From the IMG/VR virus record IMGVR_UViG_3300009285_002261, positions 1 through 47,362 of that record: a stretch of 47,362 bases of DNA; one strand, 5' to 3'. Below are positions 1-29,293 of the stretch, piece after piece (within the stretch, counting starts at the first letter, position 1; every line of letters begins with the position of its first letter). The notes under the pieces are model-generated. The model was not told where the DNA came from, ran no database searches, and saw only the letters and a list, made by a program, of their open reading frames with translations. Origin of the DNA: a virus. The translations under genes were made by a program, and so were the position numbers.

Positions 1-165
1 CACGCCGCCGCCGCCTTCGCCGCCGACGCCGCCGCGCGAAGCAAAGCGCGCCTCGAGCAAGCCGCGCTCGTGCGCTCGCGCATACCATGGTCGGTGGTCT
101 CGGCCGCGCTTGTAGCACAGGGGGCCAATCGCAAGCCGACGCGCGGCGCGGAGGCCACCACATGA
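1..165 (+). CDS. Ala-repeat conserved phage protein, C-terminal part (continues from 47000)
   Basis: Reads in frame 1 from the first base to a TGA at 163-165. It is the continuation of the gene that leaves the right edge in frame, so the joined protein is 175 aa. This part begins with Ala-rich His/Phe/Asp-punctuated repeats (like HAAAAFAADAAAR) and ends with a segment containing RSRIPWSVVSAAL. An Ala-repeat linker followed by an IPW motif is, from memory, typical of a common uncharacterised phage and bacterial family, sometimes labelled putative immunity protein. That label is not evidence of function here. The stop overlaps the next start as ATGA. Confidence 0.7.
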   Translation, partial: HAAAAFAADAAARSKARLEQAALVRSRIPWSVVSAALVAQGANRKPTRGAEATT

Positions 166-368
166 CCCCCGCCGACCGAGCCCGCGCCATGGCGGACCTG
201 CGAGCCATTCCGCGACTCACCCATGAGCGCGTGACGTTTTTGATGTCGTTCGCCGAGGTCCCGCTTACCAAGCGCCTCGCCGAGGCGGATCGGATCTATG
301 CCGAGGGTGAGGAGCGGATGGCGGCGCTGGCGCGAGCAATTGTCAGAGGAGAGACACATGCACACTAG
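162..368 (+). CDS. Small hypothetical protein
   Basis: 68 aa, starting at the ATG that overlaps the previous stop (ATGA at 162-165). The product is helical and charged, with residues such as MTPADRARAMADL near the start and a long amphipathic stretch later. No domain is recognised. The tight overlap with both neighbours (the next start at 358 lies inside its last codons) indicates a translated member of the rightward operon. Its position just before the recombination module is the only functional hint. Confidence 0.65.
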   Translation: MTPADRARAMADLRAIPRLTHERVTFLMSFAEVPLTKRLAEADRIYAEGEERMAALARAIVRGETHAH

Positions 369-1443
369 GCCCAGTTCGATGCCGCGCGCCTTTGAATGCC
401 CGAGCTCGATGCTCCCTGCCGCGGCCCCCGTCAATGCCCCGAACGACCAGAGCGACCTCGGCACGGCCGCGCACTTCGCGCTCGCGCGCCACGTCCAGGG
501 CGACGACGCCGACCTCGCCGAAATCGCCCGGGTGCACGGGGTGGATGCCGACGACCTCGCGCCGCTCGTCACATACGGGCGCAAGGCGTGGGCCGAGCTG
601 CGCCGGCTCTTCCCCTCCGTACTCGTCGAGGCTCCTCTCGAGAGCGACATCACGAGCGGCACGGCCGATCTTCTGCGCGCCGATGCCGAGGCGGTCGTGG
701 TCGCCGATTGGAAGAGTGGGCGCAACCGCCGCGCATATCGTCGCCAGGTCGAGGCCTATGCCTACGCGGCGCGCGCGAAGCACGGCATGCCTGCGAGCGG
801 CGTCGTCACTGCGATCATTGTCTGGCTGCGCTTCGCCGAGTTTGAAGTCATGCACTTTACAAGCGAGCAGCTCGACGCCTTCCGCGCCGGATACCTCGCG
901 CTCGAACGGAGCGTCGGAAAGCAGTTCGCTCCCGGCGAGCACTGCACGGGATGCCCGCGAGCGCTCGAGTGTGAGGCTCGCTCGGCCTACCTGCGCTCTG
1001 CCGGCTCGGCACTGGTCGCGGCAAAGGACGACGCGCTCACGCCAGCCAAGCTCGCCGAGCTCTACCCGCAGGCACAGCTGCTCGAGAAGGCGATCGAGGC
1101 GTATCGCGTGGCGCTCCGTCTGGCCCTCGCGGACGGACCGATCCCTATCGGCGACGGCAAACAGCTCGAGCTAGTCGAGGCCCGCCGCGCCGTCATCGAT
1201 GCACGACTCGCCTGGCCTGTACTCGAGGGTGCTGGGTTCAGCGAGGAGGACATCGCCCGCACAATCTCGATGTCCAAGGGCGAGGTTGAGGCGGTCGCCG
1301 GTGAGAAGGCGCCGCCGCGCGAGAAGGGCAAGCGCAAGGCATCAATCGTGCGCGCGCTCGAGGACGCAGGCGCGCTCACCCACGCGACGTTCACCAAGCT
1401 GCAACAAACCAAGCGCGCCACAAACGGCGCCGAGGAGGAATGA
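358..1443 (+). CDS. Cas4/AddB-like Fe-S PD-(D/E)XK exonuclease
   Basis: 361 aa, DUF2800/RecB-like nuclease, predicted to resect DNA ends for RecT-mediated annealing. The start at 358 has a good ribosome site (AGAGGAGAG). Visible motifs are Asp104 in SGTADLL, the DxK pair in VVADWKSG (Asp117, Lys119), and the following Q130-xxx-Y134. One N-terminal cysteine (Cys14) and a C-terminal C-x2-C-x5-C set (Cys196, 199, 205) match the 'iron staple' layout of Cas4 and AddB that holds a 4Fe-4S cluster. It is followed directly by RecT and an SbcC-like ATPase, a common phage recombination set. No CRISPR genes are near, so a CRISPR role is unlikely. Confidence 0.85.
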   Translation: MHTRPSSMPRAFECPSSMLPAAAPVNAPNDQSDLGTAAHFALARHVQGDDADLAEIARVHGVDADDLAPLVTYGRKAWAELRRLFPSVLVEAPLESDITSGTADLLRADAEAVVVADWKSGRNRRAYRRQVEAYAYAARAKHGMPASGVVTAIIVWLRFAEFEVMHFTSEQLDAFRAGYLALERSVGKQFAPGEHCTGCPRALECEARSAYLRSAGSALVAAKDDALTPAKLAELYPQAQLLEKAIEAYRVALRLALADGPIPIGDGKQLELVEARRAVIDARLAWPVLEGAGFSEEDIARTISMSKGEVEAVAGEKAPPREKGKRKASIVRALEDAGALTHATFTKLQQTKRATNGAEEE

Positions 1444-1445
1444 CC

Positions 1446-2366
1446 ATGGCAGACGCAACCGATAGCAAGCAACCCCGCCGCGACCTCGTGCCGGTGGCGA
1501 TGAAAGGAGGGGTGCTCACCCCGCAAAATCTGAGCGAGGCCATCGAGGTTGCCAAGCTCATCGCGCACAGCGGCATTGTGCCCAAGCAATTCGACGGGAA
1601 CCCGGGGGCCGTGCTCGTCGCGATCCAGATGGGATCCGAACTCGGACTGAGCCCCATGGCCGCGCTTCAGGGCGTCGCGGTAATCAACGGTCGCCCCACC
1701 GTATGGGGCGACGCAATGCTTGCGATCGTGACCTCGCACCCCGACTGCGTTGACGTGGTCGAGACCGAGGGCGACACCTGGGCGAAGTGCCTTGTGAGGC
1801 GGCGTGGGCGCACGCCAGTGGAGCGCGTGTTTACGGTCGATGACGCGAAGAAGGCCGGGCTGTGGGGCAAGCAAGGGCCCTGGCAGAACTATCCGCGGCG
1901 CATGCTGCAAATGCGCGCCCGGGGTTTCGCCCTGCGCGACGCCTTCCCGGATGCTCTTCGTGGCATCGTGAGCACCGAGGAGGCGCGCGACTACGACCTC
2001 ACTGCGGCGCCAGAGTTCACCGAGCCCACGGTGATCCCCGCGGGCACGCACAAGTTCGGGTTCGGGAAGAAGGCCGAGACGGCACCGGCCGCGGCGACGG
2101 ATCCGGCACCCGTGGCGCCGAGCGGGGCGGCGGCGGTGCTCGCTCAGATTGCCGCGGCGAAGAGCGAGGACGAGCTTCTGTCCGCCGCGGACGGAGCCAA
2201 GAAGCTGCCGGACGGTGAGCGCGCCGCCGTGCGCGCCGCGTACAAGTCGAAGCTCGCCGAGCTGCACGCCGAGCCATACGACGCAGTGACGGGAGAGGTC
2301 GAAGCCCGACCGCCGGCCCAGCGCAATGTGGCCGCTGCCCAGTCCAACACTGACGCCGGATTCTAG
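1446..2366 (+). CDS. recT: RecT-family single-strand annealing protein
   Basis: 306 aa. RecT proteins bind single-stranded DNA and anneal complementary strands during phage recombination and replication. The core is recognisable: an N-terminal segment with GLSPMAALQGVAVINGRP, then a Trp-rich stretch, then RMLQMRARGFALRDAFPDAL followed by GIVSTEEARDYD. The C-terminal 100 residues are Ala/Pro-rich and probably flexible. An ATG at 1440 overlaps the previous stop, but the AGGAGG at 1433-1438 is better spaced for 1446. The preceding nuclease is its expected partner. Confidence 0.9.
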   Translation: MADATDSKQPRRDLVPVAMKGGVLTPQNLSEAIEVAKLIAHSGIVPKQFDGNPGAVLVAIQMGSELGLSPMAALQGVAVINGRPTVWGDAMLAIVTSHPDCVDVVETEGDTWAKCLVRRRGRTPVERVFTVDDAKKAGLWGKQGPWQNYPRRMLQMRARGFALRDAFPDALRGIVSTEEARDYDLTAAPEFTEPTVIPAGTHKFGFGKKAETAPAAATDPAPVAPSGAAAVLAQIAAAKSEDELLSAADGAKKLPDGERAAVRAAYKSKLAELHAEPYDAVTGEVEARPPAQRNVAAAQSNTDAGF

Positions 2367-2375
2367 GGGACCATC

Positions 2376-2495
2376 ATGTCAAAGATCGTAGAGCTGCGTG
2401 CGGCGGGATGGAAATTGAAAGACCTCTCGGCGCGCTTTGGTGTCGCCGAGTCAGCTGTTTCTCGCATCTGTAACCACGTCAGGAGGGCCTCGTGA
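2376..2495 (+). CDS. Mini helix-turn-helix protein
   Basis: 39 aa. The sequence (MSKIVELRAAGWKLKDLSAR, then FGVAESAVSRICNHVRRAS) is almost entirely one homeodomain-like helix-turn-helix of the 'GxxxxDLxxxFGVxxSxVSxI' type seen in recombinases and small phage regulators. Its stop overlaps the GTG of the next gene (GTGA, 2492-2495). It may bind DNA as a dimer or help recruit the recombination proteins around it. The role is inferred only from the fold. Confidence 0.7.
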   Translation: MSKIVELRAAGWKLKDLSARFGVAESAVSRICNHVRRAS

Positions 2496-3817
2496 GCCAC
2501 ATTATCGAGTTGCGCGCGGAGAACTTCAAGAAGCTTGTCGCCATAGAGATAAGGCCGAACGGATCCCTTGTGACGGTTTCTGGCATGAACGGGGCCGGGA
2601 AGACGAGCACTCTCGACGCTATCGCCGCTGCCCTCGGCGGCAAGGACCTACTGCCCGCCGAGCCGCTCCGCCGCGGCGCCGGGAAAGGCTTTGCCGAGGT
2701 CACGCTCGACGACGGGCTCGTCATCAAGCGCACCTTCACGCCGGGCGGCGGGGGCTCGCTCTCCGTCGCATCGAAGGACGGCGCGAAGTACGGCTCACCA
2801 CAGAAGCTCCTCGATGGGCTGGTCGGCAAGCTGAGTTTCGACCCGCTGTCTTTCTCGCGCATGGACCCGAAGGCCCAGGCGGCGACGCTCCGCGATCTCG
2901 TGGGCGTCGACACAACGGAGTTGGATGCTCGCCGCAAGGGGGCCTTCGACGAGCGGACCGACGTCGGCCGCGAGGTCAAGCGATTGGAGGGCGCGCTCGC
3001 AAAGCTACCGGCTCTCGCGGCGGATGCACCCGTGGACGAGGTATCCGTTGACGAGCTCACGGCCGAGCTCGAGCGGCGCCGGGCGACGAACGACACGCGG
3101 CGAGCGGAGGTGGCCCACCTCGAGCAACTCCGCAAGGACGCGGTCGCACTCAAGCGTCGCATCGACGACCTGGAGACCCAGCTAACACAGGCGCGCGCGA
3201 GCCTCGAAGTGCTGCGTGGGCAGGGCACGGCCCAGGCGGCAAAGGTCGCGGCACTTGTCGAAGCCGACGAGAGCGAGGTCATCGAGCGGTTGCGCAGTGC
3301 GCAGGCGACCAATGCCGCCGCGCGAGCTGCGGCCGAACGGCGCAGGCTCGAGAGCGAGTTGGAGACGCAGCGAGCGAGGGTAGACGATCTCACCGCGGCC
3401 ATCGTCAAGGTCGATGACCAGAAGCGGGCGCTGCTCGAGTCGGCAAAGATGCCGATCGCCGGGCTCGCGTTCGACGATGCGGGCGTGACACTCAATGGCC
3501 TCCCCCTTGCCCAGGCCTCCAGTGCCGAGCAGTTGCGGGCGAGCGTGGCCATCGGACTGGCGATGCATCCGAAGCTTAAGGTGCTGCTCGTGCGCGACGG
3601 CAGCCTGCTCGATGAGAAGAGCCTGGCCATGGTCGCAGAGATGGCGACCGCGGCCGATGCACAGGTGTGGGTCGAGCGAGTCGGCAAGGGCGCGGAGTGC
3701 GCGGTCATCATCGAGGATGGCCATGTACTCAGCGCGCCAGCGCCGGTCGCGGAGTCGAGGCCCAACGGCCGCAAGCCACAGGCGCGAGCGGTGCGTGGGC
3801 CGGGCGAAGAGGGTTGA
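2492..3817 (+). CDS. SbcC/RecF-like AAA ATPase
   Basis: 441 aa. An N-terminal P-loop domain starts with an SMC/RecF-style strand (IIELRAENFKKL) and Walker A GMNGAGKTS (31-39). A central coiled coil rich in Ala, Arg, Glu and Leu follows (about 130-310). A C-terminal lobe contains QASSAEQLRASVAIGLAMHP and KVLLVRDGSLLDEKSL, which are signature and Walker B-like segments. Proteins of this type act in DNA end processing. Here it completes the nuclease-RecT-ATPase module. The start is GTG overlapping the previous stop. The C-terminal tail is Pro/Arg-rich. Confidence 0.85.
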   Translation: MSHIIELRAENFKKLVAIEIRPNGSLVTVSGMNGAGKTSTLDAIAAALGGKDLLPAEPLRRGAGKGFAEVTLDDGLVIKRTFTPGGGGSLSVASKDGAKYGSPQKLLDGLVGKLSFDPLSFSRMDPKAQAATLRDLVGVDTTELDARRKGAFDERTDVGREVKRLEGALAKLPALAADAPVDEVSVDELTAELERRRATNDTRRAEVAHLEQLRKDAVALKRRIDDLETQLTQARASLEVLRGQGTAQAAKVAALVEADESEVIERLRSAQATNAAARAAAERRRLESELETQRARVDDLTAAIVKVDDQKRALLESAKMPIAGLAFDDAGVTLNGLPLAQASSAEQLRASVAIGLAMHPKLKVLLVRDGSLLDEKSLAMVAEMATAADAQVWVERVGKGAECAVIIEDGHVLSAPAPVAESRPNGRKPQARAVRGPGEEG

Positions 3818-3824
3818 TCAGACT

Positions 3825-3912
3825 GCGGCCGTACCAACAGCCGGCCGCTAGCGTCCCCGGGGCCCGGGATAGGCCCGGCGTCGGGGGTGGCCCGACGAAG
3901 CCCCGGGGGCGC
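3825..3912 (+). ncRNA. Structured element: hairpin plus three-way junction
   Basis: This lies in the 139-bp gap after the ATPase gene. First comes a 7-bp hairpin: GCGGCCG (3825-3831) pairs with CGGCCGC (3842-3848). Next, GCGTCCCCGGGGC (3851-3863) pairs along all 13 positions, one of them G-U, with GCCCCGGGGGCGC (3900-3912). That outer stem encloses two perfect hairpins: CCGGG/CCCGG (3864-3868 and 3874-3878) and CGTCGGG/CCCGACG (3879-3885 and 3891-3897). Only AA (3898-3899) is unpaired at the junction. No U-tract follows, so a plain terminator is unlikely. It may be a small RNA, an mRNA stability element, or a DNA cruciform. Confidence 0.6.
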
Positions 3913-3956
3913 GAGATACGAAGGGGTGAGTTGATGAGTATCGGGAGGCACTAGGC

Positions 3957-4268
3957 ATGAGTGCCGCATTCACCGTCGAGGATTGGAAGCGCCACTGCGA
4001 CAACTGTACGCGCGAAGCCATTGCGCAGAACACCAGGCTACGCGAGGCGAACGCGAGGCTGCGTGCTGAACTAGTCGCTATCGGCAAGCTCGTGGTCGAG
4101 CGCACCGGCGCGGAGATCACAGCGTGCGGCGGCGACGCGGACGCCTGGCGCCCAATGGATATGCGCGGCCTCGTCGAGGACTGCCTGCACCTAGTCCGCT
4201 GCGAGTATCAACCCGATGGTCACGGCCAATGCAGGCTGCTGCATGGGCATCGTGGCGAGCACGTGTGA
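3957..4268 (+). CDS. Small protein with coiled coil and Cys/His C-terminus
   Basis: 103 aa, start preceded by GGGAGG at a spacing of 8. The N-terminus has HCDNCTREA, the middle a short coiled coil (NTRLREANARLRAELVAI), and the C-terminus VRCEYQPDGHGQCRLLHGH with further His. The last part resembles the 'CxxxxGHxGxH' zinc-binding tails of small phage proteins. It is probably a small metal-binding protein. Nothing in the context fixes its function. Confidence 0.6.
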   Translation: MSAAFTVEDWKRHCDNCTREAIAQNTRLREANARLRAELVAIGKLVVERTGAEITACGGDADAWRPMDMRGLVEDCLHLVRCEYQPDGHGQCRLLHGHRGEHV

Positions 4269-4308
4269 AGTGAAGACGCTCGCACGTCGCGAGCCGAGGA
4301 GATAGATC

Positions 4309-4614
4309 ATGACAACCAAAAGCAAGAGCAAGAGCAGCAAGACAGTAGCACAGAATCTCGTGGTTGAGGTTCCGCTGCCGGACGGATGTTTGAGCATGTA
4401 TATCGGCGAAGTCGTGCAGCGCGACGCCGATAGTATTACGCTGCGCCAGGCATCATGGGTGGCATGCACGGGAAGGCGGCACCTCTTCTTTGCCGGCACC
4501 CCGGACAGCAATACCGAGATCGAGCCGTACCCCGACGACACCGAAATCGTGCTCCCCCTGCCCGGCGCCATCCTGACATCATGGGCGCATCCTCTGCCGC
4601 GCCAGGTGCGCTGA
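4309..4614 (+). CDS. Conserved hypothetical protein
   Basis: 101 aa, start ATG preceded by GGAGATAG, the leader motif shared by several genes in this genome. The N-terminus is Lys/Ser-rich (TTKSKSKSSK). The rest looks like a compact beta protein (GEVVQRDADSITLRQASWV, then GTPDSNTEIEPYPDD). From memory it recalls small phage proteins of a DUF6948-like kind, but I am not certain. The stop overlaps the next possible start (TGATG). Confidence 0.6.
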   Translation: MTTKSKSKSSKTVAQNLVVEVPLPDGCLSMYIGEVVQRDADSITLRQASWVACTGRRHLFFAGTPDSNTEIEPYPDDTEIVLPLPGAILTSWAHPLPRQVR

Positions 4615-4862
4615 TGCCTGCCGGTGTAGCGCCCGCGACGTGGACGAGGACGAGGACGTGGACGTGGACGAGGACGAGGACGGGGACGTGGACGAGGACG
4701 AGGACGGGGACGAGGACGAGGACGGGGACGAGGACGTGGACGAGGACGGGGACGGGGACGTGGACGAGGACGAGGACGGGGACGAGGACGTGGACGGGGA
4801 CGTGGACGAGGACGAGGACGGGGACGAGGACGAGGACGAGGACGGGGACGAGGACGAGATAG
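4614..4862 (+). CDS. Possible Thr-Arg repeat protein (one of two overlapping candidates)
   Basis: 82 aa in the frame read ACG-NGG: after MPAGVAPATW it is a Thr-x dipeptide repeat where x is Arg, Trp or Gly. It has the better start, since ATG overlaps the previous stop and AGGTG lies 5 bases upstream. It would be extremely basic. It ends at a TAG (4860-4862), 15 bases before the next gene. The whole body lies in a hexamer repeat that is open in all three forward frames, so translation is uncertain and the acidic frame below is the alternative. Confidence 0.35.
   Translation: MPAGVAPATWTRTRTWTWTRTRTGTWTRTRTGTRTRTGTRTWTRTGTGTWTRTRTGTRTWTGTWTRTRTGTRTRTRTGTRTR
4637..4858 (+). repeat. 37 tandem GACGNG hexanucleotides
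   Basis: 37 uninterrupted 6-bp units in perfect phase. Only the fifth base varies: A in 20 units, G in 9, T in 8, never C. Because the unit length is divisible by three, copy-number change keeps every frame open. The variable base is codon position 2 in the GAC-GNG frame (Asp then Glu/Val/Gly) and position 1 in ACG-NGG (Thr then Arg/Trp/Gly). It is silent in CGN-GGA (Arg-Gly). Confidence 0.95.
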
Positions 4863-4885
4863 TCAGGAGTGACGCTGATGTGTGA
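4640..4885 (+). CDS. Possible acidic Asp-Glu/Val/Gly repeat protein (alternative frame)
   Basis: 81 aa from a GTG that is part of the first repeat unit. It is an almost pure Asp-x repeat (DEDEDVDVDEDEDGDV style) ending IVRSDADV. Its stop overlaps the next start by 8 nt (ATGTGTGA), the same overlap type seen at other gene joins here, which favours translation. Against it, no convincing ribosome site precedes 4640. A -1 slip from the 4614 frame would also reach this frame. If made, it would be a highly negative, disordered, possibly DNA-mimicking protein. Confidence 0.35.
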   Translation: MDEDEDVDVDEDEDGDVDEDEDGDEDEDGDEDVDEDGDGDVDEDEDGDEDVDGDVDEDEDGDEDEDEDGDEDEIVRSDADV

Positions 4886-5282
4886 GCGATGCTATAAGGT
4901 ATTGGGAGTCATACGCAAAACAGACGCTTTGCACGGATGGGCGGATGAACAAGATGGCGACAATCCATCTATCGCCATGATGATGAGAGAGGCTCTCGCC
5001 GCCCACGAGCGGGAGAGCGAGTGCGCTCTTTCTGAGTGCGTCGGATGTCCCGAGTACGAGCCCTGCGGCAAAAACGAGAAGCCGTGCGTGCTAATCGCAG
5101 AGAGCGAGCCCGCCGACGATGCAGTGATGCCGCTCAACAAGGTCAACACGATCGCGCTGCATGTCCGTGGCCGCGACGAGCCAGCCATCCGTGCCGAGGA
5201 GCGGGAGCGCTGCCCCGACTGCGGCGCAACGGGAGCGTACGGATACTACTGCGAGCACGATAGCGGCGAGGAGGGCAAGTAA
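4878..5282 (+). CDS. Cysteine-rich putative zinc protein
   Basis: 134 aa, ATG chosen because AGGAG lies 9 bases upstream. It contains CERC at residues 2-5, a central C-x4-C-x2-C-x4-C set (CALSECVGCPEYEPC) and a C-terminal zinc-ribbon half (CPDCG followed by YYCEHD). It probably binds several zinc ions. No enzyme motif is visible. It starts a run of small genes with tight overlaps that ends at the DUF5131 gene. Confidence 0.6.
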   Translation: MCERCYKVLGVIRKTDALHGWADEQDGDNPSIAMMMREALAAHERESECALSECVGCPEYEPCGKNEKPCVLIAESEPADDAVMPLNKVNTIALHVRGRDEPAIRAEERERCPDCGATGAYGYYCEHDSGEEGK

Positions 5283-5536
5283 TGGGAGCCGTCACCATGA
5301 CCCAGTGCGACCACTGCAAAAAGATGGTGGAGAAACCATACGCCGAGCGCGGATGGATCCAATTCAACGGGGGTGCCGCCGACTATGCCATAGCGATCTC
5401 TCGATCGCATGGTATCTATGGCCCGTCCAGCTACCGCACCGACTTTCTCGAGCGGATCTCTGACTTCTGCTCGATAGAATGTCTCGTCGCCGCTCTCGAT
5501 GCGAAGCGCGACGAGGCGCCAGGGAGCAAGCCATGA
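5282..5536 (+). CDS. Small zinc-finger-like protein
   Basis: 84 aa, start in TAATG overlap with the previous stop and with GAGGAGGG 6 bases before. CDHC near the N-terminus (about residues 9-12) and CSIEC near residue 64 form two Cys pairs about 55 residues apart. This fits a treble-clef or split zinc site. The middle is aromatic and Ser-rich (ISRSHGIYGPSSY). Function unknown. Confidence 0.6.
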   Translation: MGAVTMTQCDHCKKMVEKPYAERGWIQFNGGAADYAIAISRSHGIYGPSSYRTDFLERISDFCSIECLVAALDAKRDEAPGSKP

Positions 5537-5796
5537 CCGACGACACTCTGGGTAGCGCCGCACGGGAATACATCGACGCGCACGCGGCCAAGTTCCGCGA
5601 GATAATCGATGAGCTGCGCGCGGAGATATGCCGGCTCGAGATTGAGCGCATCGCACGCGAGGACCGGCAGCGGGCCAAGATCGATGGCAAGGAGCGGCAG
5701 CGGCTGCTCGACTACTTCGCTGGGCAGGCGCCAGTGGGGATGATGGCGACAGAGCAGGACGATCAGCCGTTCACACCGCGGCTGCTCGCGGAATGA
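5533..5796 (+). CDS. Small helical hypothetical protein
   Basis: 87 aa, ATG overlapping the previous stop (ATGA). Most of it is predicted helix, with a charged coiled-coil stretch (FREIIDELRAEICRLEIERI, then AREDRQR). It ends in a short polar tail. No known domain is seen. Confidence 0.6.
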   Translation: MTDDTLGSAAREYIDAHAAKFREIIDELRAEICRLEIERIAREDRQRAKIDGKERQRLLDYFAGQAPVGMMATEQDDQPFTPRLLAE

Positions 5797-5807
5797 GGAG
5801 ATGTGGG

Positions 5808-6863
5808 ATGAGCAAGAGCGACATCTCTTGGTGCACGGATAGTTGGTCGCCCGTCCGTGGCTGCACTCCGGCGAGCGAGGGGTGCACGAATTGCTGGGCC
5901 GTCCGCACGGTCTGGCGTCTGTCGTACAACCCTATCATGAACAACCGGTGCGTTGGTCTCGTCGAGGCCAACGACAGCGGCGAGGCAGAAGACAGCCGCC
6001 CGCGCTGGACTGGCCAGGTCCGCACGTATCCCGACGCCCTCGCCAAGCCGCTCCGATGGCGCAAGTCGCGCAAGGTGTTCGTGGTGCCGCAGGGTGATCT
6101 CTTTCACGAGGCGGTGCCCGACCACTTCATCGCGGCCGTGTTCGGCATCATGGCCGCGTGCCCGCAGCATATTTTCCAGGTGCTCACCAAGCGAGCGAGG
6201 CGGATGCGGGAGTGGTTCGCGTGGGCCAGCACGATCCATCTCGGCCATGCACCAGAGAGCGGACCCACGCCGGTGTTCCAGGGGTGGGCGCTCGAGCAGA
6301 TGTCAGGGACCAGGCCGATCGGCTCATCGCAACCCTGGCCGCTCCCGAACGTCTGGCTCGGCGTGACCTGTGAGAATCAGCAGCGCGCCGACGAGCGGAT
6401 CCTCGACCTGCTCGCGTGCCCGGCCGCGGTTCGCTGGGTGAGCATCGAGCCGATGCTGGGGCCCGTCGATCTCCGACGCTGGACGCTCAATGCTGGGCGG
6501 TGTAGCGGCCCGCTCGAGTACGATGTCTCCCCTACCGGCGCGCTCGACTGGATTGTTGTAGGCGGCGAGTCGGGATCGAAGGCGCGGCCGATGCACCCCG
6601 ACTGGGCGCGCTCGATCCGCGACCAGTGCAGCGCAGCAGGGGTGGCTTTCTTTTTCAAGCAGTGGGGGGAGTGGTCGCACAACTACATCGACCACAACGC
6701 GCAGTGCGCCTTTGTGACCCCGGACGGGAAGCACGGCCCGCAATATTGCGGCTACGGCAGAGACAACCCTGGCGCGCTCAGCGTCTGGAAAGTGGGAAGG
6801 CGTCGCGCCGGGGATCGGCTTGACGGTGATCAGATACAGCAGTGGCCGGAGCCGCGCCCATGA
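5808..6863 (+). CDS. Gp37/Gp68 family (DUF5131) protein
   Basis: 351 aa. The start at 5808 has GAGGAGAT upstream. The family signature lies at the N-terminus: WSPVRGCTPASEGCTNCWA with Cys19, Cys26 and Cys29, plus Cys9. Later segments (VFVVPQGDLFHE, QVLTKRARRM, WLGVTCENQ, WVSIEPMLGPV, WIVVGGESG, FFFKQWGEW) follow the known order for this phage family. It is related to radical-SAM-like TIM barrels and binds a metal cluster through the cysteines. Its reaction is unknown. Length is normal for the family. Confidence 0.9.
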   Translation: MSKSDISWCTDSWSPVRGCTPASEGCTNCWAVRTVWRLSYNPIMNNRCVGLVEANDSGEAEDSRPRWTGQVRTYPDALAKPLRWRKSRKVFVVPQGDLFHEAVPDHFIAAVFGIMAACPQHIFQVLTKRARRMREWFAWASTIHLGHAPESGPTPVFQGWALEQMSGTRPIGSSQPWPLPNVWLGVTCENQQRADERILDLLACPAAVRWVSIEPMLGPVDLRRWTLNAGRCSGPLEYDVSPTGALDWIVVGGESGSKARPMHPDWARSIRDQCSAAGVAFFFKQWGEWSHNYIDHNAQCAFVTPDGKHGPQYCGYGRDNPGALSVWKVGRRRAGDRLDGDQIQQWPEPRP

Positions 6864-6897
6864 AAACACCACGCGCACACCACCCGGAGGTAAGACC

Positions 6898-7074
6898 ATG
6901 AGCGACCGCATCGAATGGGACTGGTGCTCGCGCTGCCGGCGGGGAGCCCCTGCCCTGCCCTGCTTAGGCTTCCGGCCGCGGCCACGAAGACCCGCCGCGA
7001 GCGCGCCGTGGGACTGCCCGAGCTCGCGGTGCACATTGTGCGGCAGCGTGCCGAGCGCGGCGCCAGCAAGGTGA
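6898..7074 (+). CDS. Short ORF with strong ribosome site, probably the broken 5' end of the integrase-like gene
   Basis: 58 aa from an ATG with an excellent site (GGAGGTAAGACC). It begins MSDRIEWDWCSRCRRGAPAL, a zinc-ribbon-like start, then turns into low-quality Arg/Pro-rich sequence. The switch falls on three tandem CCCTG units (6948-6962). With one unit fewer, this start would be in frame with the recombinase remnant that follows. I therefore see it as the displaced start of that gene, or as a small zinc protein fused to it by deletion. Confidence 0.45.
   Translation: MSDRIEWDWCSRCRRGAPALPCLGFRPRPRRPAASAPWDCPSSRCTLCGSVPSAAPAR
6948..6962 (+). repeat. (CCCTG)x3 pentanucleotide repeat at a frame boundary
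   Basis: Three perfect CCCTG copies lie between the strong start at 6898 and the integrase frame. Loss of one 5-bp copy would join MSDRIEWDWC... directly to ...LLRLPAAATKTRRER. It is a candidate slippage site. Confidence 0.7.
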
Positions 7075-7398
7075 CTGGCGTGGTTTTCGCGCCAAGGAAT
7101 TTCAAGAAAGCTCTCGCCGCCGCGTGCGCCAAGGCCGGAGTGCCGCGCTTCACTCTGCGCGATCTGCGGCACACCTATGCCACGCTCGCGCTCGCCGGGA
7201 CGGCCGATGCCGTTGCGGTCCAGGCGGCGCTGGGGCGTACGGATCTGCGCACGACCCAGCTTTACCAGTCGACCACACTGAGCCGGACAGCAGCAGCCTC
7301 GGCCGCGGTGGCGCTGGCACTGGGCCTGCCGGGGGGGTCAAAGTCGGGTGGTCATAGCGATACAGGCAAGACGGAGATACCCCAGGATTTTCAAGCGC

Positions 7399-7439
7399 GC
7401 GCCCGTAGCTCATATGGACAGAGCACCGGCCTTCTAAGC
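7399..7439 (+). other. attP: Putative attP core: 5' half of tRNA-Arg(UCU)
   Basis: Bases 7399-7437 read as a tRNA from the acceptor arm to the anticodon loop: GCGCCCG (acceptor), TA, GCTC/GAGC D-arm (7408-7411, 7421-7424), CCGGC anticodon stem, loop CTTCTAA with anticodon TCT (7433-7435). Pairing on the 3' side fails after GC (7438-7439), and no T-arm (TTCGA) follows. It is a half-gene joined to unrelated DNA, as expected for an attachment site with crossover in the anticodon loop. It lies inside the integrase reading frame. Confidence 0.75.
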
Positions 7440-7448
7440 GCCCGATCC

Positions 7449-7514
7449 CTTGCAATATCATGTACTTGCTGTGCAGAGCGTTGCCGCCGCTTGCACGGCT
7501 TTTCGCATGCTTGC
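7449..7514 (+). repeat. Four CTTGC direct repeats beside attP
   Basis: CTTGC occurs at 7449-7453, 7465-7469, 7490-7494 and 7510-7514. In addition GGGGTCAAA occurs on both sides of the tRNA half (near 7324 and 7524). These could be arm-type integrase or excisionase sites. The words are short, so chance is possible. Confidence 0.3.
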
Positions 7515-7582
7515 GAGGGGGAGGGGTCAAATGCAGGGGGCATGGTCGATCTGGGTGACGAGCGCTCGAAGGGCGGCACCCG

Positions 7583-7777
7583 ATGAGCACCCCTCGTCCC
7601 CGCTACGACTACGTGGTCAAGCGCGGCCTCGACTGCTGGGCCGTGCGCGAGCTCAATCGGTGGGGTCATGTTCGCCGGCAGTGGGTCGGCTACCACACGC
7701 ACGCCGAGGCGCTGGCGGTGGCACTGGCCCTTGAGGAGCACGAGAGCCGCAGGACTGTGCAGCGGGGGTGCGCATGA
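7583..7777 (+). CDS. Small hypothetical protein
   Basis: 64 aa, ATG overlapping the integrase-frame stop (ATGA 7583-7586). Residues such as YDYVVKRGLDCWAVRELNRWG suggest a small beta-hairpin-helix fold with AALAVALALEE-like helix near the end (EALAVALALEEH). No known domain. The overlap indicates translation coupled to the upstream frame. Confidence 0.55.
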   Translation: MSTPRPRYDYVVKRGLDCWAVRELNRWGHVRRQWVGYHTHAEALAVALALEEHESRRTVQRGCA

Positions 7778-8082
7778 CCCGCCCCCTCCTCCCCTGGCGC
7801 CTCGGCTACGACTGCCAGGGCGGCACCTCGGTATCAGTCGGCAGCGAGTACGGCCTGGACTTCGACGAGCTGTGCCTTGCCGAATCGGTGCATCTCGAGC
7901 GCCTCGAGCCGCGGCACTTCTTCCTGAGCGTCGGCGACAGGGCGATCTGGTTCAGCGTCAGGCGCGACGGGACGGCCAGCATCACACACGAGGAGACACG
8001 CCAGCTCGTCAGCCCGAAGCAACGGAAGAAAAACCTGGTGGCACTGACACGCGCCCGTGGGCGCGGGAGGAGCAAGCAATGA
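7774..8082 (+). CDS. Hypothetical protein
   Basis: 102 aa, ATG at 7774 overlaps the previous stop. The body (LGYDCQGGTSVSVGSEYGLD, HFFLSVGDRAIWFSVRRDG) looks like a small beta-sheet protein. The C-terminus is basic (RARGRGRSKQ). No family recognised. Confidence 0.55.
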   Translation: MTRPLLPWRLGYDCQGGTSVSVGSEYGLDFDELCLAESVHLERLEPRHFFLSVGDRAIWFSVRRDGTASITHEETRQLVSPKQRKKNLVALTRARGRGRSKQ

Positions 8083-8393
8083 AGGTCGTGGTGTACGGAG
8101 CGAGCGACGACTTGATCGAGATCGAAGGAGACTTGTCCGAGGAATTCGGCGCGTACGACTCAGGTGAGCCGAAGACACGCTTCCTGGCGTTCTCGGATGG
8201 CACGCTGTTGAGCATCGTCTACGGCATCGACGGTGCCTACTGGCGCATCAACCGCATGGTCGCCGGGCAGGCGACCTACGAGAAACACGAGGCGACCTAC
8301 GATGATGGCGACTACAGCGACCGCGTCACGCTGACCGGCGACAACCTGCGCTGGGTGGTGCTCGGCGAACACTGCGAAAGGGCGAAGACGTGA
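8079..8393 (+). CDS. Conserved hypothetical protein (KVVVYGASDDLIEIEGD family)
   Basis: 104 aa, ATG overlapping the previous stop. It begins MKVVVYGASDDLIEIEGDLS, continues with RFLAFSDGTLLSIVYG, and contains YSDRVTLTGDNLRWVVLG. I recognise this as a recurrent small protein of phages and bacteria with no assigned role. It is acidic and predicted mostly beta. It precedes thyX with a GTGA overlap. Confidence 0.7.
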   Translation: MKVVVYGASDDLIEIEGDLSEEFGAYDSGEPKTRFLAFSDGTLLSIVYGIDGAYWRINRMVAGQATYEKHEATYDDGDYSDRVTLTGDNLRWVVLGEHCERAKT

Positions 8394-8992
8394 AGATCGT
8401 ACAGCCCTCAGTCACGCTCGAGGCCTGGATACCGGAGCCAGCCGCCATCATCGAGCGAGCCGGACGCACGTGCTATCGGAGCGAGCACAACATCTGCCCG
8501 GGCAGTGCGGCCCGCTTCGTGCGGATGCTGGTCGAGCGCGGCCACCTATCCGTGCTCGAGCACGTGAGCGCTACGCTGCGCATCGTCTCTGACCGCGGCG
8601 TCTCGCATGAGCTAGTGCGCCACAGGATCGCCAGCTTCGCGCAAGAAAGTACTCGGTATTGCCGCTACGACCACGGCATCGAGGTCATCGAGCCGCCAGG
8701 GCTATCCGATCACAATCGCGAGGCATGGATGTCCGCAGTCGCCAAGGCGGAGCGCGCCTATCTCAACATGCTAGATGCAGACACAGCGCCCCAGATCGCC
8801 CGCGCCGTACTGCCGACCTGTCTCAGGACCGAGATCGTTATGACCGCCAATGCTCGCGAGTGGCTGCATGTACTCGAACTGCGCGAGAGCAAGGCAGCAC
8901 ATCCACAGATGCGACAGGTGGCCAGCATGATGCGCGCCGAGCTTGCTGGCTGGTGTCCCGAACTCTTCGCCAAGGAGCTGAGCGATGTCTGA
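8390..8992 (+). CDS. thyX: FAD-dependent thymidylate synthase ThyX
   Basis: 200 aa, close to the normal family length. ThyX makes dTMP from dUMP using methylene-tetrahydrofolate, NADPH and FAD. The diagnostic motif RHRIASFAQESTRY is at residues 77-90. An N-terminal segment with SVLEHVSATLRI and the C-terminal RESKAAHPQMRQVASMM are also typical. GTG start overlaps the previous stop. With the pyrophosphohydrolase downstream it would raise dTTP for phage DNA synthesis. Confidence 0.95.
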   Translation: MKIVQPSVTLEAWIPEPAAIIERAGRTCYRSEHNICPGSAARFVRMLVERGHLSVLEHVSATLRIVSDRGVSHELVRHRIASFAQESTRYCRYDHGIEVIEPPGLSDHNREAWMSAVAKAERAYLNMLDADTAPQIARAVLPTCLRTEIVMTANAREWLHVLELRESKAAHPQMRQVASMMRAELAGWCPELFAKELSDV

Positions 8993-9194
8993 GACCGTGG
9001 ACCATCCACCGCACTACAACCACGGCGGCGTCGAGGCAATCGACGTCATCGAGGCGTGGGAGCTCGGCTTCTGCCTCGGCAACGTAGTCAAGTACATCTC
9101 GCGGGCAGAGCACAAGGGATCGACGCTCGAGGATCTGCGCAAGGCGGCTTGGTACCTCAATCGGGAGATCGAGCGGAGGGGCAAGAGCAAATGA
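8985..9194 (+). CDS. DUF3310 protein
   Basis: 69 aa. The family pattern is clear: DHPPHYNHGGVEAIDVIEAW, then CLGNVVKYISRAEHKGSTLE and DLRKAAWYLNREI. DUF3310 proteins are common in phage nucleotide-metabolism clusters and are sometimes called nucleotide kinase-like, but activity is not established. The start overlaps thyX by 8 nt (ATGTCTGA). Confidence 0.9.
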   Translation: MSETVDHPPHYNHGGVEAIDVIEAWELGFCLGNVVKYISRAEHKGSTLEDLRKAAWYLNREIERRGKSK

Positions 9195-9637
9195 ACACGG
9201 CCTACTGCGCCAACTGCGAGTCTGCGTTCCCAGCCGGCCAGCATGAATGCAATCCTGACTGGCAAGCCGAGGTCAACCGCTTCAACGACGCGATCGAAAC
9301 CCCGCGGCGCGAGTCGCCCGGCTGGCCCGACAACAACTCCGGCATCCCGCTCGCACTGAGGCTCATCGGCGAGGAGCACTGCGAGCTCGTCGAGGCCGTC
9401 CACCGCACGGACATCGTCGAGACCGCCGACGCGATCGGGGACTGCATCGTCGTCCTGCTCGGTCTCGCACGCCGGCTCGGCATCGACATGCACCCGGTCA
9501 TGGCGGAGATCCAGCGCAGCAATATGGCCAAGGCGGGTGGTCCTGTGCGCCCCGACGGCAAGCGACTCAAGCCGCCCGGGTGGACGCCTCCCAACATCGC
9601 GCGCGTGCTGCGGGCGCAGGGGTGGGATGGCCAATGA
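9191..9637 (+). CDS. MazG/PRA-PH-like NTP pyrophosphohydrolase
   Basis: 148 aa. The N-terminus has Cys pairs (YCANCESAF ... HEC) like a small zinc knuckle. The core has the all-alpha pyrophosphohydrolase motifs EExxE (GEEHCELVEA) and a downstream ExxD pair (VETADAIGDCIVVLLGLA). The ending MAKAGGPVRPDGKRLKPPGW then TPPNIARVL is typical of phage PRA-PH proteins. It likely hydrolyses a nucleoside triphosphate to the monophosphate, with Mg2+ held by the acidic motif. It pairs functionally with ThyX. Confidence 0.85.
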   Translation: MNTAYCANCESAFPAGQHECNPDWQAEVNRFNDAIETPRRESPGWPDNNSGIPLALRLIGEEHCELVEAVHRTDIVETADAIGDCIVVLLGLARRLGIDMHPVMAEIQRSNMAKAGGPVRPDGKRLKPPGWTPPNIARVLRAQGWDGQ

Positions 9638-9930
9638 TGACTCCGCTCGAATTGGCGCTTGCATGCAAGCGTGTCATCGAAAGCGAGCACGGACTCAGCA
9701 GGGTCTGTCTGGTTGTCCCTGGCCCACCGCCGCGAGGCGAGCGCATACGCCTCGATCGCTCGACGCGCAAACGGTGCCCAATGGGCGAGGTGGCGAACTG
9801 GCACGACAACCCGCCGCGCACCGTCGCCTACTTCGATGCGATCGATGTGCTCGCATGGCTGCACGCAAAGGGCCTTGTCAATGTGGATGCAACAGAGAGG
9901 AGACCGCATGTACCGCACCGCCAGCCGTAG
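9634..9930 (+). CDS. Conserved hypothetical protein
   Basis: 98 aa, ATG overlapping the previous stop (ATGA). The sequence LSRVCLVVPGPPPRGERIRL, then PMGEVANWHDN and AYFDAIDVLAWLHAKG, looks like a compact alpha/beta protein. It recalls small proteins of other phages, but no domain name can be given. Confidence 0.6.
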   Translation: MMTPLELALACKRVIESEHGLSRVCLVVPGPPPRGERIRLDRSTRKRCPMGEVANWHDNPPRTVAYFDAIDVLAWLHAKGLVNVDATERRPHVPHRQP

Positions 9931-10360
9931 CCGAGCCACACAATCGCAGTCGCGCCGCTCGAGTGATGCCGGCCCGAAGCACGCCCGCTTCCTCGTCGTC
10001 GCCTTCCGCCGCGGTCGTGACAACATGGGCCGCGAGCGCGTCTATCGCCGCGTGTGGGCCGAGAGCTTCTACGACCAGGCCGAGTCCCGCATGGAGGCGC
10101 TCGCCGAGTCGTACGAGTACCGGGCCGTGCTGCATGCGGACGGCACGACGGCCAAGAGCTACGGGACCGTATCTGTCGCCGAGGAGTGGGCCGCAACGAG
10201 GCGCGGTCACAACCGCGGCGCGGACTGGTGCACGGCGAGCACGCACGCGGACAGAGAGGGCGGGCACGATCGGTCGGCGGTGGAGCAGCGCAACGATTTT
10301 CTGGAAACGTGCGCGGCGCTGGGGCGGACCGGGAATCGGTCGAGGTGCAGAAGTGTCTGA
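9908..10360 (+). CDS. Hypothetical basic protein
   Basis: 150 aa, ATG preceded by AGGAG at spacing 6. It overlaps the previous gene by 23 bp. The N-terminal 25 residues are Ser/Arg-rich and likely disordered. The rest includes RRVWAESFYDQAESRMEALA and AVEQRNDFLETCAALG. No motif for function seen. Confidence 0.5.
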   Translation: MYRTASRSRATQSQSRRSSDAGPKHARFLVVAFRRGRDNMGRERVYRRVWAESFYDQAESRMEALAESYEYRAVLHADGTTAKSYGTVSVAEEWAATRRGHNRGADWCTASTHADREGGHDRSAVEQRNDFLETCAALGRTGNRSRCRSV

Positions 10361-10697
10361 GCGCTGGCCCCCCGCCGACCTGCTCCACTCCTCCGGCGTC
10401 TGGCTGGTGCGCGACGGCAAGAGGGTACGGGAGCTGGCGGCCCAGGGGCAGCTTGCCATCGAGGGTCCGCGCGCAGCCAAGCACGGGAGCAATGGGGTCC
10501 TCGAGCGATTGGTCGCAGCAGTCGAGAGCGCGAGGCGAGTCCTCGGCGGAGAGGTGATCGATGGGATCGCAGACAAGGAGCAGGCCCGCGCCGAGGCAGC
10601 GCACGACCACGAGATCGAGCGCCGGGAGCGACAGGGACGCGAGCAGCAGGAGCGCTACGCTGCCTCTGCCCGACGAGGGCGCCGCCGCACTGGCTGA
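10353..10697 (+). CDS. Hypothetical protein, coiled-coil C-terminus
   Basis: 114 aa from GTG with GAGG 8 bases upstream; 8-nt overlap with the previous stop. The N-terminal half (LLHSSGVWLVRDGKRVRELA) may be a small beta element. The C-terminal third is a charged helix (AEAAHDHEIERRERQGREQQ). No recognised family. Confidence 0.5.
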   Translation: MSERWPPADLLHSSGVWLVRDGKRVRELAAQGQLAIEGPRAAKHGSNGVLERLVAAVESARRVLGGEVIDGIADKEQARAEAAHDHEIERRERQGREQQERYAASARRGRRRTG

Positions 10698-10809
10698 GCT
10701 CGCGCGACTGTGGGATCTCGGACACCAGCACGGATGTGCGTGCAGGGCGTGTGTGAGGCTGCGATCGGTGGCGCGTGCGGCTGGGCTCTGGGCGAGCTTG
10801 CCGGCCTGA
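10561..10809 (+). CDS. Hypothetical protein, last gene of the rightward block
   Basis: 82 aa if the ATG at 10561 is used, which overlaps the previous gene by 137 bp. The convincing part is the C-terminal half (LPDEGAAALAELARLWDLGH, then CACRACVRLRSVARAAGLW) with a C-x-C-x2-C cluster. No better start exists in frame. It ends 2 bp before the last gene of the leftward block, so the two operons converge here. Confidence 0.4.
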   Translation: MGSQTRSRPAPRQRTTTRSSAGSDRDASSRSATLPLPDEGAAALAELARLWDLGHQHGCACRACVRLRSVARAAGLWASLPA

Positions 10810-10811
10810 CT

Positions 10812-11447
10812 CTAGCGCGCGACCACGATCCCCGCCGCCATCCCGAGCAGTAGCCCAGCCCCGCTCGCAGCGGCGACATGCCACCATTGCCAGGTCGGCG
10901 ACGGGTCCGGCACGACGACGGCCTCAGAGTACGGCGCCTCGAATGCACCGCGCGCCAGTAGCGCCGCCTCGGGTGGGCCCAGTCGCCAGGCCGAGATTGC
11001 ACCGACGAGCACCCGCGCTCCGGCGCGGCCCCCGATCACGACCTCATCCGCGCGCAGCTCGAGCCGGTCGCCAGGGCGCACCAGACACGGGACCTCTTCC
11101 GACTCATCTTCGGGTGGTGGCTCCTCGTCGGGTGGCTCTTCGACGACGATCGGCCCCGTGCTCGCGCGCACCACCGAGACGATACGCGAGCGAGGGAGTG
11201 CCTTGCGCGCCTTGTCGAGTGCGGCTTGAAGCTCCGGGACCTTGCCGGCCAGATCGTCGGCTCGCCGCTCGGCCTGCTCTCGGCTCACCCGCTCCTCGAC
11301 GATTTCACCGAGCGCACGCAGCTCCGACTCCTCGGCCGCGGTTCGAGCATCGGCCTCGGCGTCGAGTTGAGACTGGAGCCGATGCAAATACCAGCCCCCG
11401 CCGCCGACGAGGCCGACGACGAGAAGCCAGGGAAAGACGTTGCTCAC
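10812..11447 (-). CDS. Membrane protein of the lysis cassette
   Basis: 211 aa, GTG start in GTGA overlap with the holin-like gene. An N-terminal membrane segment (FPWLLVVGLVGGGGWYL) is followed by a coiled coil (about 25-85), an acidic Pro/Glu stretch (EEPPDEEPPPEDESEE), a globular part and a second membrane segment at the C-terminus (ASGAGLLLGMAAGIVVA). Position after the endolysin and the coiled coil suggest a spanin-like or lysis accessory role. The C-terminal second membrane segment is not standard for an i-spanin. Confidence 0.6.
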   Translation of the reverse strand: MSNVFPWLLVVGLVGGGGWYLHRLQSQLDAEADARTAAEESELRALGEIVEERVSREQAERRADDLAGKVPELQAALDKARKALPRSRIVSVVRASTGPIVVEEPPDEEPPPEDESEEVPCLVRPGDRLELRADEVVIGGRAGARVLVGAISAWRLGPPEAALLARGAFEAPYSEAVVVPDPSPTWQWWHVAAASGAGLLLGMAAGIVVAR

Positions 11448-11707
11448 AGCTGCGGCTCGGCCGGCTTGGCGTTGCGCTCCCCTGCCGTGATGGCGCCGGC
11501 GAGGAAGCCGCAGATGACCGCCGCGATCTTGATCGCTCGCACCACGCCGGGCTCTGGCGCACCATCCGGCGCGATCACGCTCGCGAGCTGGTCGGCGAAG
11601 GCCAGCCCACCCGCCGCGAAGGCTAGTGTCGCGCCACGGAGCCAGCGGACTGCCGCGAGCTCGTCAAAGAGAAAGGCCCGAAACACACGCTTGATGAGAG
11701 GGATCAC
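11444..11707 (-). CDS. Putative holin (two membrane segments)
   Basis: 87 aa, GTG start overlapping the endolysin stop. Two hydrophobic segments, LRGATLAFAAGGLAFADQL (about 24-42) and IKIAAVICGFLAGAITAG (about 61-78), are separated by a short loop. The N-terminus is basic and the tail is polar. Size, two-helix layout and position directly after the endolysin fit a holin that forms membrane lesions at lysis time. Sequence family not identified. Confidence 0.6.
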   Translation of the reverse strand: MIPLIKRVFRAFLFDELAAVRWLRGATLAFAAGGLAFADQLASVIAPDGAPEPGVVRAIKIAAVICGFLAGAITAGERNAKPAEPQL

Positions 11708-12324
11708 GCTACACCTCCAAGTGAAAGACCTTCGGCGCGCACGAGCGTTGCCACGTGGTCACGGTCCGTGCGCCACTGATCGATCGCTGCCAGCCGCGCG
11801 AGCACATCGCCCTCCAGCTTGCGCAGGTCGAGCGACTCATGCGGGCAGACCTTGCCCGGATCGCGGCTCGCTCCTGGTAGTGACGTGTGCCCGACGATGC
11901 GCGCCGGCTTGCCGCCGACTAGCACGCTCGCCAGCACAAGCGCGGTGCAGGTTCGCACGAGCGCACGGACCTGATGTGTGGTTGGCCGCTCGCCGACGTA
12001 GGCCACTGCCCACGACTTGCTATTGTGCTCTCGCGCATGGGCCCCGCGCACCGAGAGCGGTAGCATCTGTTCAACCACGCCGTCCGCGCGCACGAGCAGG
12101 TGGTAGGGACACAGCCCCGAGGTGCCGAGGCCATTGGGTGGCGAGGCCGACTGCGCCGCGAAGGTGCGGACCAAGCCCACGCCGTCGAGGTCCTCGTCGG
12201 AGATGGGGCTCGGATTGTCGGTGCCGCCCACTCGCAGACTGGTCTTGTGGATAACGATGAATTCCGGGCCGACGACTGGCCTCGAGTTGCGAGCATCGCA
12301 CTCGGCGATCCGATCGCGGATCAC
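11704..12324 (-). CDS. Endolysin, N-acetylmuramoyl-L-alanine amidase-like
   Basis: 206 aa, GTG start overlapping the upstream stop. Amidase_2/PGRP fold: EFIVIHKTS (His26), PYHLLVRADGVVEQMLPLSV, RGAHAREHNS, WAVAYVGERPT, and VGHTSLPGASRDPGKVCPHE. By analogy with T7 lysozyme, His26, His146 and Cys160 are likely zinc ligands. It would cut the amide bond between MurNAc and L-Ala. No signal peptide is seen, so release depends on a holin. Confidence 0.85.
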   Translation of the reverse strand: MIRDRIAECDARNSRPVVGPEFIVIHKTSLRVGGTDNPSPISDEDLDGVGLVRTFAAQSASPPNGLGTSGLCPYHLLVRADGVVEQMLPLSVRGAHAREHNSKSWAVAYVGERPTTHQVRALVRTCTALVLASVLVGGKPARIVGHTSLPGASRDPGKVCPHESLDLRKLEGDVLARLAAIDQWRTDRDHVATLVRAEGLSLGGVA

Positions 12325-27175: not shown

Positions 27176-29293
27176 CTAGGCCTGGTAACCGACTTCCCAG
27201 CCCTTGATTACAACCGTGCCAGCCTGCGCCGCCGTGGCGTGCAGGAAACGAACGTACGGGATGAGTTGGTCGCCATCGTCGAAAGACATCGCCGCAGTTG
27301 CCGCCGGGGCAGCCAGTGTTCCTGGCGTCACGGCATCGTGCTGCAGCGTCGCCACTCCCGCGGCGCTGACCAGTATCTTCACCTGCAGGTCGGTCGCCGA
27401 GGCGATGGTGTTGGTAGTGTCGGTGTTGTCGGCGCCGCCGCCGTTTAGCTCATTGCGCACTTTGAGCGCACCCGGTGACGCAGCGGTGTTGAGGCCGAGG
27501 CCGAAGTACGTGTTGTAGGCCTCTGCATCGGAGTTGCCGAGCTCGGCCTTGCGGAACCCAATGAACAGGTCATCACAGCCGTTGATCAGCTGGATGTTGA
27601 GCTTGACCAGGAAGTAGAACGCTGCGTCGATGCCGACCGCAAGCGGCTTGCCGCTGGTGTGGATCCAGTGACTGAATACTTCCAGGCCATCGTTGTCGGC
27701 CTGGTCGCAGCCAATGTCGATACCATCCGTGGTGGCCACCGGGCCAGTGATGGTCTGACCAGCGCCAAGGACGAAGTAGCCGAGCTGCGTCGCGTCCGGC
27801 AGAACGCAGAGGTTGTAAGCCCCGGTAGTCCCGTCGGCCACGGTGAAGTCGGCTTGGATGTTCGTCGGGTCGTCGTTGGCACTCATCCCGGCGAGGGTCG
27901 CCTTGACGATCTTGCCGTTGTCCCAGACGGGGATGGTATCGGCCGCGCTGACCACAAGACGATGACCGGCCGTGCCGATGGCGCGGCGAGCGAGCGCAGT
28001 GGCCGAGCTCTTGTAGAGGACGTCGCCCTTTGCGTCGCTACCCACCGTGACGTCGGTCACAGTGAGCGCCCCACCGTCCGCGATAGTCGCGTCACCACTG
28101 ACGGCCGACCACTGAGGCGCCGTGTCACCAGCGTTGACCTGGAGGAGCTTGCCGGCGCCACCAGTAGCCAATCGCGCAAGCGCGGTGGCCGAGCTCTTGT
28201 AGAGCAGGTCGCCCGTAGCATCCGACCCGACCGTCACGTCCGTGACAGTGATGGCGCCACCGTCAGCGATGGTCGCATCGCCACTAAGCGCGGACCACTG
28301 CGGCGCCGTGTTGCCAGCATTCAGCTGGAGCAGTCGACCGGCGCCGCCGACACCGAGGCGGGCTAGTGCGGTCGCGCTCGACTTGTAGAGCAGGTCACCA
28401 GTGGCGTCGCTGCCCACCGTGACGTCGGTCACGGTGAAGGCGCCCGCATTGGACATCGTCGCGTCGCCGGACGGAGTCACAGCTGCGGCAAGGCCGCTGC
28501 CGTTGCCCGCCCAGATCTTGCCGTCCGCGAGCGCGGCACCGACCACCGAATTCATGCCGGCCGGCGCAACGAAGACTGATCCGGTCGCAGCTTCCACGAC
28601 AGTCGCGAGCGCCCAGGCGACCACCTGTGCGCTATTCGTCGCAGTGACGAGTTCCCCGTCCGCCTCGACCGCCAGTGCATCGCCGGCGGTAAAGCCGCCC
28701 GTGCCTGCCTTGGCCGTCGCCGGACCGAAGGTCACCACCTGCGCCTCGGCACTCAATGCCGGGGCGTTCTGGAGGATGCCCAAAGCCCGCTCCCCCGCGC
28801 TTGAGCACTTGACGATCTGACCGGCCGTGGTGTGCGCCTTGACTCCGCAGTATTGGCCGCTCGAGGCGTAGTTGGCCGAGCTCACGAAGGTCTGCTGACC
28901 GAGCAAGCCGGCCGCGGCACCGCCGCCACCGGGGCACAGGAAGACGGCCTTGATGTCGTTGGAGACGCCGCTCTGCAGTGCGAGCCCGATGATGTTGTCG
29001 TCTTCATCGGTCGCGCTGATGAGCTTCCCGCTCGAGTCGGTCGTGAGCGGATCCATCTCGGTGACAGTCCCGCCCAGTATCGCCTTAGAGATACCGAGCA
29101 AAGCGACGGTGCCGGTCTGCGCCGACGTCGGGTCATCTTGCAGAATGCCGACTGGGCGCTCGCCTCTGGTCGCGCAGATCGCGAGCTTGTTCGAGCCGTT
29201 CAATTTGACGGCGTAGTATTGGCTCGAGCTGAGATCGGAAGCGGCCTCGAAGGCATCACGGAGGCAGGTATTCTCGTAAGCGGCTGCGGTCAT
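27176..29293 (-). CDS. Head decoration / head fibre protein
   Basis: 705 aa directly upstream of the major capsid gene. Two DUF2190-like decoration domains lie at about 25-120 and 145-246 (GERPVGILQDD..., GERALGILQNAP...). Three 62-residue repeats follow (275-460; each with SGDATIADGGAITVTDVTVG and GDLLYKSSATALAR). The end is a jelly-roll-like domain (about 480-705). DUF2190 proteins sit on the capsid surface and the repeats resemble tail-fibre 'DATGDLLYRSGGA' units, so this looks like a head fibre anchored by decoration domains. Confidence 0.75.
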   Translation of the reverse strand: MTAAAYENTCLRDAFEAASDLSSSQYYAVKLNGSNKLAICATRGERPVGILQDDPTSAQTGTVALLGISKAILGGTVTEMDPLTTDSSGKLISATDEDDNIIGLALQSGVSNDIKAVFLCPGGGGAAAGLLGQQTFVSSANYASSGQYCGVKAHTTAGQIVKCSSAGERALGILQNAPALSAEAQVVTFGPATAKAGTGGFTAGDALAVEADGELVTATNSAQVVAWALATVVEAATGSVFVAPAGMNSVVGAALADGKIWAGNGSGLAAAVTPSGDATMSNAGAFTVTDVTVGSDATGDLLYKSSATALARLGVGGAGRLLQLNAGNTAPQWSALSGDATIADGGAITVTDVTVGSDATGDLLYKSSATALARLATGGAGKLLQVNAGDTAPQWSAVSGDATIADGGALTVTDVTVGSDAKGDVLYKSSATALARRAIGTAGHRLVVSAADTIPVWDNGKIVKATLAGMSANDDPTNIQADFTVADGTTGAYNLCVLPDATQLGYFVLGAGQTITGPVATTDGIDIGCDQADNDGLEVFSHWIHTSGKPLAVGIDAAFYFLVKLNIQLINGCDDLFIGFRKAELGNSDAEAYNTYFGLGLNTAASPGALKVRNELNGGGADNTDTTNTIASATDLQVKILVSAAGVATLQHDAVTPGTLAAPAATAAMSFDDGDQLIPYVRFLHATAAQAGTVVIKGWEVGYQA
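27914..28471 (-). repeat. Three 186-bp repeats in the head decoration gene
   Basis: DNA copies of the 62-residue fibre unit. Units 1 and 2 are closest; unit 3 diverges at its end. Such arrays change length by recombination. Confidence 0.8.

Follow-up and report, generated by a model that had tools for sequence, protein, structure and literature searches.

What function, if any, is served by a highly structured, GC-rich element located directly behind a recombination gene of a phage? The question is raised by the window analyzed here, which is the entire 47,362-base IMG/VR record IMGVR_UViG_3300009285_002261 (65.8% G+C). Its left arm (~0.2-10.7 kb) is oriented rightward and carries, in this order, genes for an exonuclease (PDDEXK/DUF2800), RecT and an SbcC/RecF-like ATPase (phrog_1499), followed by small genes; DUF5131, an integrase-like ORF, Thy1, DUF3310 and a PRA-PH/MazG-like gene also belong to this arm. 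The region from ~10.8 to 44.8 kb is oriented leftward and includes the terminase, portal protein and helicase genes. A first-pass annotation had singled out 88 nucleotides between the ATPase gene and a small gene as a near-perfect three-way junction, and had proposed that these could be a non-coding RNA, a protected 3' end or a cruciform recognized by the ATPase-nuclease module.

A branched stem-loop in the gap behind the ATPase gene

The features of the locus, all on the + strand, are:

2492..3817, +, gene that precedes the element and encodes the SbcC/RecF-like P-loop ATPase (phrog_1499; Pfam AAA_23)
3818..3956, +, 139-nt gap between the ATPase gene and the next ORF, with no called gene
3825..3848, +, minor hairpin of 7 bp with a 10-nt loop, absent from the fold of the complete gap
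3851..3863, +, closing stem (13 bp), 5' arm
3864..3878, +, hairpin 1, 5-bp stem with loop AUAGG
3879..3897, +, hairpin 2, 7-bp stem with loop GGUGG, followed by unpaired A3898-A3899
3900..3912, +, closing stem (13 bp), 3' arm, with no T-run behind it
3957..4268, +, small ORF of 103 aa, without Pfam or PHROG family

Folding reproduces the three-way junction as it had been drawn: nucleotides 3851-3863 pair with 3900-3912 to form 13 bp, including one U-G, which enclose two perfect hairpins and leave two bases unpaired, and the minimum-energy structure of 3851-3912 is identical to its centroid structure. The element, whose G+C content is 85%, begins 34 nt past the ATPase stop codon within a co-directional gene run, and has the previously described position between an SbcC-like ATPase and a small gene. 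The reported lack of a U-tract is equally borne out, as the sequence from 3913 onward (gagatacgaagggg) contains no T-run.

As RNA, the 88 nt fold to −66.3 (z −4.8) when read from the + strand and to −61.3 (z −3.0) when read from the − strand, the single imperfect pair being U-G in the former and A/C in the latter. The + strand RNA, which corresponds to the direction of the operon, accordingly folds better; the preference is slight, and the strand argument is weak because it depends on one base and because both strands also fold well as single-stranded DNA (z −6.0 and −5.4), so that it is compatible with a DNA role as well.

Stability of the element relative to shuffled sequences

The first-pass annotation had suggested that the fold be judged against shuffled sequence. 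In such a comparison none of its dinucleotide shuffles folds as well as the element, yet the z-score of the latter is not exceptional for the record as a whole. The 88-nt fold (−66.3) compares with −49.3 +/− 3.5 in dinucleotide shuffles, none of 200 being as good, and the 62-nt junction alone has a z-score of −4.6, with 0 of 1000 dinucleotide shuffles reaching its stability. Folding of the complete 139-nt gap gives a z of only −2.7 and a minimum-energy structure that no longer contains the hairpin at 3825-3848, so that the robust part of the element is the three-way junction only; the extra hairpin that had been described ahead of it is present in the 88-nt fold and lost from that of the gap.

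In absolute terms, the 62-nt element is the stablest sampled 62-nt stretch of the record, at −52.2 kcal/mol versus −35.9 for the runner-up real window and −42.4 for the best sampled window of one shuffled genome. Among sampled 62-nt + strand windows, z-scores below −3.5 were found for 21 real and 17 block-shuffled ones, shuffled values extending down to −6.1, and the distribution of z on the real + strand resembles that of the shuffled genome. Three-way junctions scoring as high as the element were encountered four times in 200 shuffled genomes, in one case with an outer stem of 13 bp or longer, and the genome-wide improbability of the element is moderate. What is unusual about it is its absolute stability, helped by the 85% G+C, combined with its clean geometry. 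High-GC sequence gives striking folds, and at this base composition little weight attaches to the earlier argument that pairing so extensive goes far beyond the needs of a terminator.

Search for relatives and copies

No family linkage of the element was found. Covariance models of Rfam 15 gave no credible match to it at either gathering or relaxed thresholds, and a tRNA/tmRNA scan was negative. It is present in a single copy in the record; exact stem patterns had no match in IMG/VR, and BLASTN yielded chance-level matches only against phages and none against plasmids. When a covariance model based on the element alone was run on 160 loci and 17 bacterial genomes, it recovered only the element itself, two chance-level matches and the element's own reverse strand, the last of these being explained by its quasi-palindromic shape. 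Close relatives of the phage were found in neither IMG/VR, GTDB genomes, nor phage or plasmid records, and those sought via the terminase, RecT, ATPase, exonuclease and small ORF were all distant (~60% amino acid identity or less, considering long matches) or absent. A REP/MITE-like repeat would be expected in more than one copy; one copy was found in the record and none in the 17 bacterial genomes sampled, which need not include the host.

These results bear on the possibility that the element has no function, being a GC-rich chance quasi-palindrome or the remnant of a host repeat that is tolerated in a noncoding gap. Such an origin would be compatible with the equally good branched structures of four in 200 shuffled genomes, with a region that is no outlier by z-score, and with the finding of neither a relative nor a repeat. 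Pure chance is nevertheless less likely considering that noncoding gaps are few and the element occupies one of them, immediately after a stop codon; moreover, it is far stabler than every other sampled stretch. We thus regard a functionless element as rather unlikely.

Its clean three-way geometry and its location 45-106 nt upstream of the start of the 3957 ORF would also suit a structured RNA with a role of its own, either a leader or attenuator for that ORF or a small RNA released from the early transcript by processing. This explanation is doubtful in view of the absence of matches in Rfam, even at the relaxed threshold, and of relatives detected by the covariance model. The Shine-Dalgarno-like GGGAGG that precedes the ORF, at ~3943-3948, lies outside the folded element; no promoter-like site is found on the + strand in 1-12000, and no alternative pairing of the switch type is seen. 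The more specific idea of a phage three-way-junction RNA that functions where the recombination module ends, as a processed small RNA or a protein-holding RNA, is decidedly improbable.

The 3' end of homologous ATPase genes

Homologues of the ATPase were drawn from viral and bacterial contigs and annotated phages, and the 3' end could be read in 154 of them. In these homologues, the ATPase gene is mostly overlapped or abutted by the next ORF (median gap −3 nt, 75th percentile ~10 nt), and no gap is found behind the ATPase in any of the four that, like the window, have RecT upstream; the element accordingly does not belong to an ATPase system. Most homologues have neither a gap nor a hairpin at this position, and the co-occurrence of hairpin and ATPase that would characterize an SbcC/ATPase-linked DNA hairpin was not observed across them. 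The order of the two genes varies: where both were found, RecT (1440-2366 in the window) lies upstream of the ATPase in 4 cases and downstream in 10.

The majority of homologues that do have a gap fold no better than shuffles in this region, with the exception of loci L103, L232 and L116. In L103, two neighboring strong hairpins that lack a T-run (3820-3886, z −4.4) follow the homologous ATPase of another phage, and are unrelated in sequence to the window element; in L003, L005 and L116, a strong hairpin plus T-run is found at the same place. The structures of these loci indicate that the end of the ATPase gene is a place that sometimes holds terminator-like structures, and the window element lies at the strong, U-less end of this range. 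The fetched loci, 1.9 Mb in total, contain seven other three-way junctions, and none of these immediately follows the ATPase stop codon.

In Escherichia coli, SbcCD cleaves a 246-bp interrupted palindrome, and an 85-bp one is described as not being a target during replication (PMC3315005). The window element shares with the cleaved palindrome an inverted repeat that can fold on one DNA strand; however, its arms measure just 13-16 bp, separated by a 36-nt spacer. The idea of a hairpin or cruciform on single-stranded or supercoiled DNA that the ATPase and exonuclease of the phage recognize, or that serves in replication or recombination, is therefore very unlikely despite the strong folding of both DNA strands and the location within the recombination module, given these small arms, the lack of room behind most ATPase homologues with or without a neighboring RecT, the absence of a DnaA box near by, an ATPase of 441 aa with one cysteine and no CxxC zinc hook, and the failure to recognize any Mre11/SbcD-type nuclease among the early genes scanned.

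A candidate 3'-end stem-loop of the early transcript

Among the options raised by the first-pass annotation, a protected 3' end is the best supported, and the ATPase-recognized cruciform is left without support. On balance, the element is probably an intercistronic stem-loop without U-tract that acts as a terminator or as 3'-end protection of the upstream transcript. As expected of a U-less terminator or exonuclease block, it is a stable stem-loop that lacks a U-tract and follows a stop codon at short distance; it is the stablest sampled stretch, 34 nt past the stop in a 139-nt gap of a co-directional run; the pairing preference for the + strand and the strong hairpins found at the same place in some gapped homologues (L003, L005, L116 and L103) point in the same direction. 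Against this reading stand the missing U-tract, the mostly gapless homologues, the shuffle-level folding of most gapped ones and the moderate rarity of the element.

If the rightward early operon is read on the + strand, the exonuclease-RecT-ATPase genes would be transcribed first, and the GC-rich branched hairpin would then form in the RNA just past the ATPase stop codon. There it could act as a transcription roadblock and cause partial, U-less termination; alternatively or additionally, it could stop 3'-to-5' exonucleases and so generate a stable 3' end of the upstream message. By being transcribed and by terminating or protecting, the element would affect expression, with the result that the recombination genes and the downstream small genes would be expressed at different levels.

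Like a canonical intrinsic (Rho-independent) terminator, the element is a GC-rich stem-loop located behind a gene, but no U-tract directly follows the stem (3913-3930), and a terminator scan called no site at the element. A U-tract is needed by most well-studied intrinsic terminators, and the termination efficiency of U-less hairpins is debated. No Rho-site-like, C-rich and G-poor stretch is present just downstream, where 3909-3986 contains 14 C and 31 G. The canonical intrinsic terminators of L003, L005 and L116 resemble the window element in their position behind a homologous ATPase gene and in their GC-rich stem, and differ from it by the T-run that follows.

Closer parallels come from other systems. 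According to PMC8355165, about half of the best hairpin candidates that follow stop codons in many bacteria have no U stretch, and terminators without poly-U tails have been reported from the phiC31 early region (citing Ingham, Hunter and Smith 1995). The stem-loops of this actinophage are similar to the window element in being strong and U-less and in belonging to a GC-rich phage, where they lie in the early region; those of phiC31 are reported as terminators, whereas that of the window is a candidate and is branched, and no sequence relation was found. In E. coli, the 3' end of galE mRNA is set by an exoribonuclease-blocking hairpin (PMC11925234), which is likewise stable and placed just past a stop codon within an operon; the galE hairpin consists of a single 8-bp stem, in contrast to the 13-bp branched stem of the window, whose processing is putative.

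The element thus most likely merely marks or protects an mRNA end, and no link to the neighboring ATPase was found. If the 3'-end reading is true, the element would be a further case of GC-rich phages that may shape their early transcripts by strong stem-loops rather than by U-tract terminators; it would matter more only with the detection of a discrete RNA.

Other features of the record

The integrase-like ORF (phrog_1) at 6915-7586 matches its family only in the C-terminal catalytic part, and its apparent tail is the translation of a tRNA-like attP region. Directly behind the ORF, at 7399-7439, is the 5' half of a tRNA-Arg(UCU), extending through the anticodon loop, which is the probable attP core. 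A host search of sampled genomes gave no exact match to this tRNA half; the best matches, each with one mismatch, belong to a genome in the phylum of an Anaeromyxobacter MAG and to a genome in the class of a gammaproteobacterial MAG.

Two further regions are repetitive. The stretch at 4637-4885 holds 37 GACGAG-type hexamers, which encode a protein of 81 aa composed almost entirely of Asp, Glu, Gly and Val; this may be an acidic protein of the DNA-mimic-like type or result from the expansion of a simple repeat. At 27986-28444, a 186-bp repeat occurs in 2.5 copies within a 705-aa gene, the N-terminal part of which matches a head scaffolding family.
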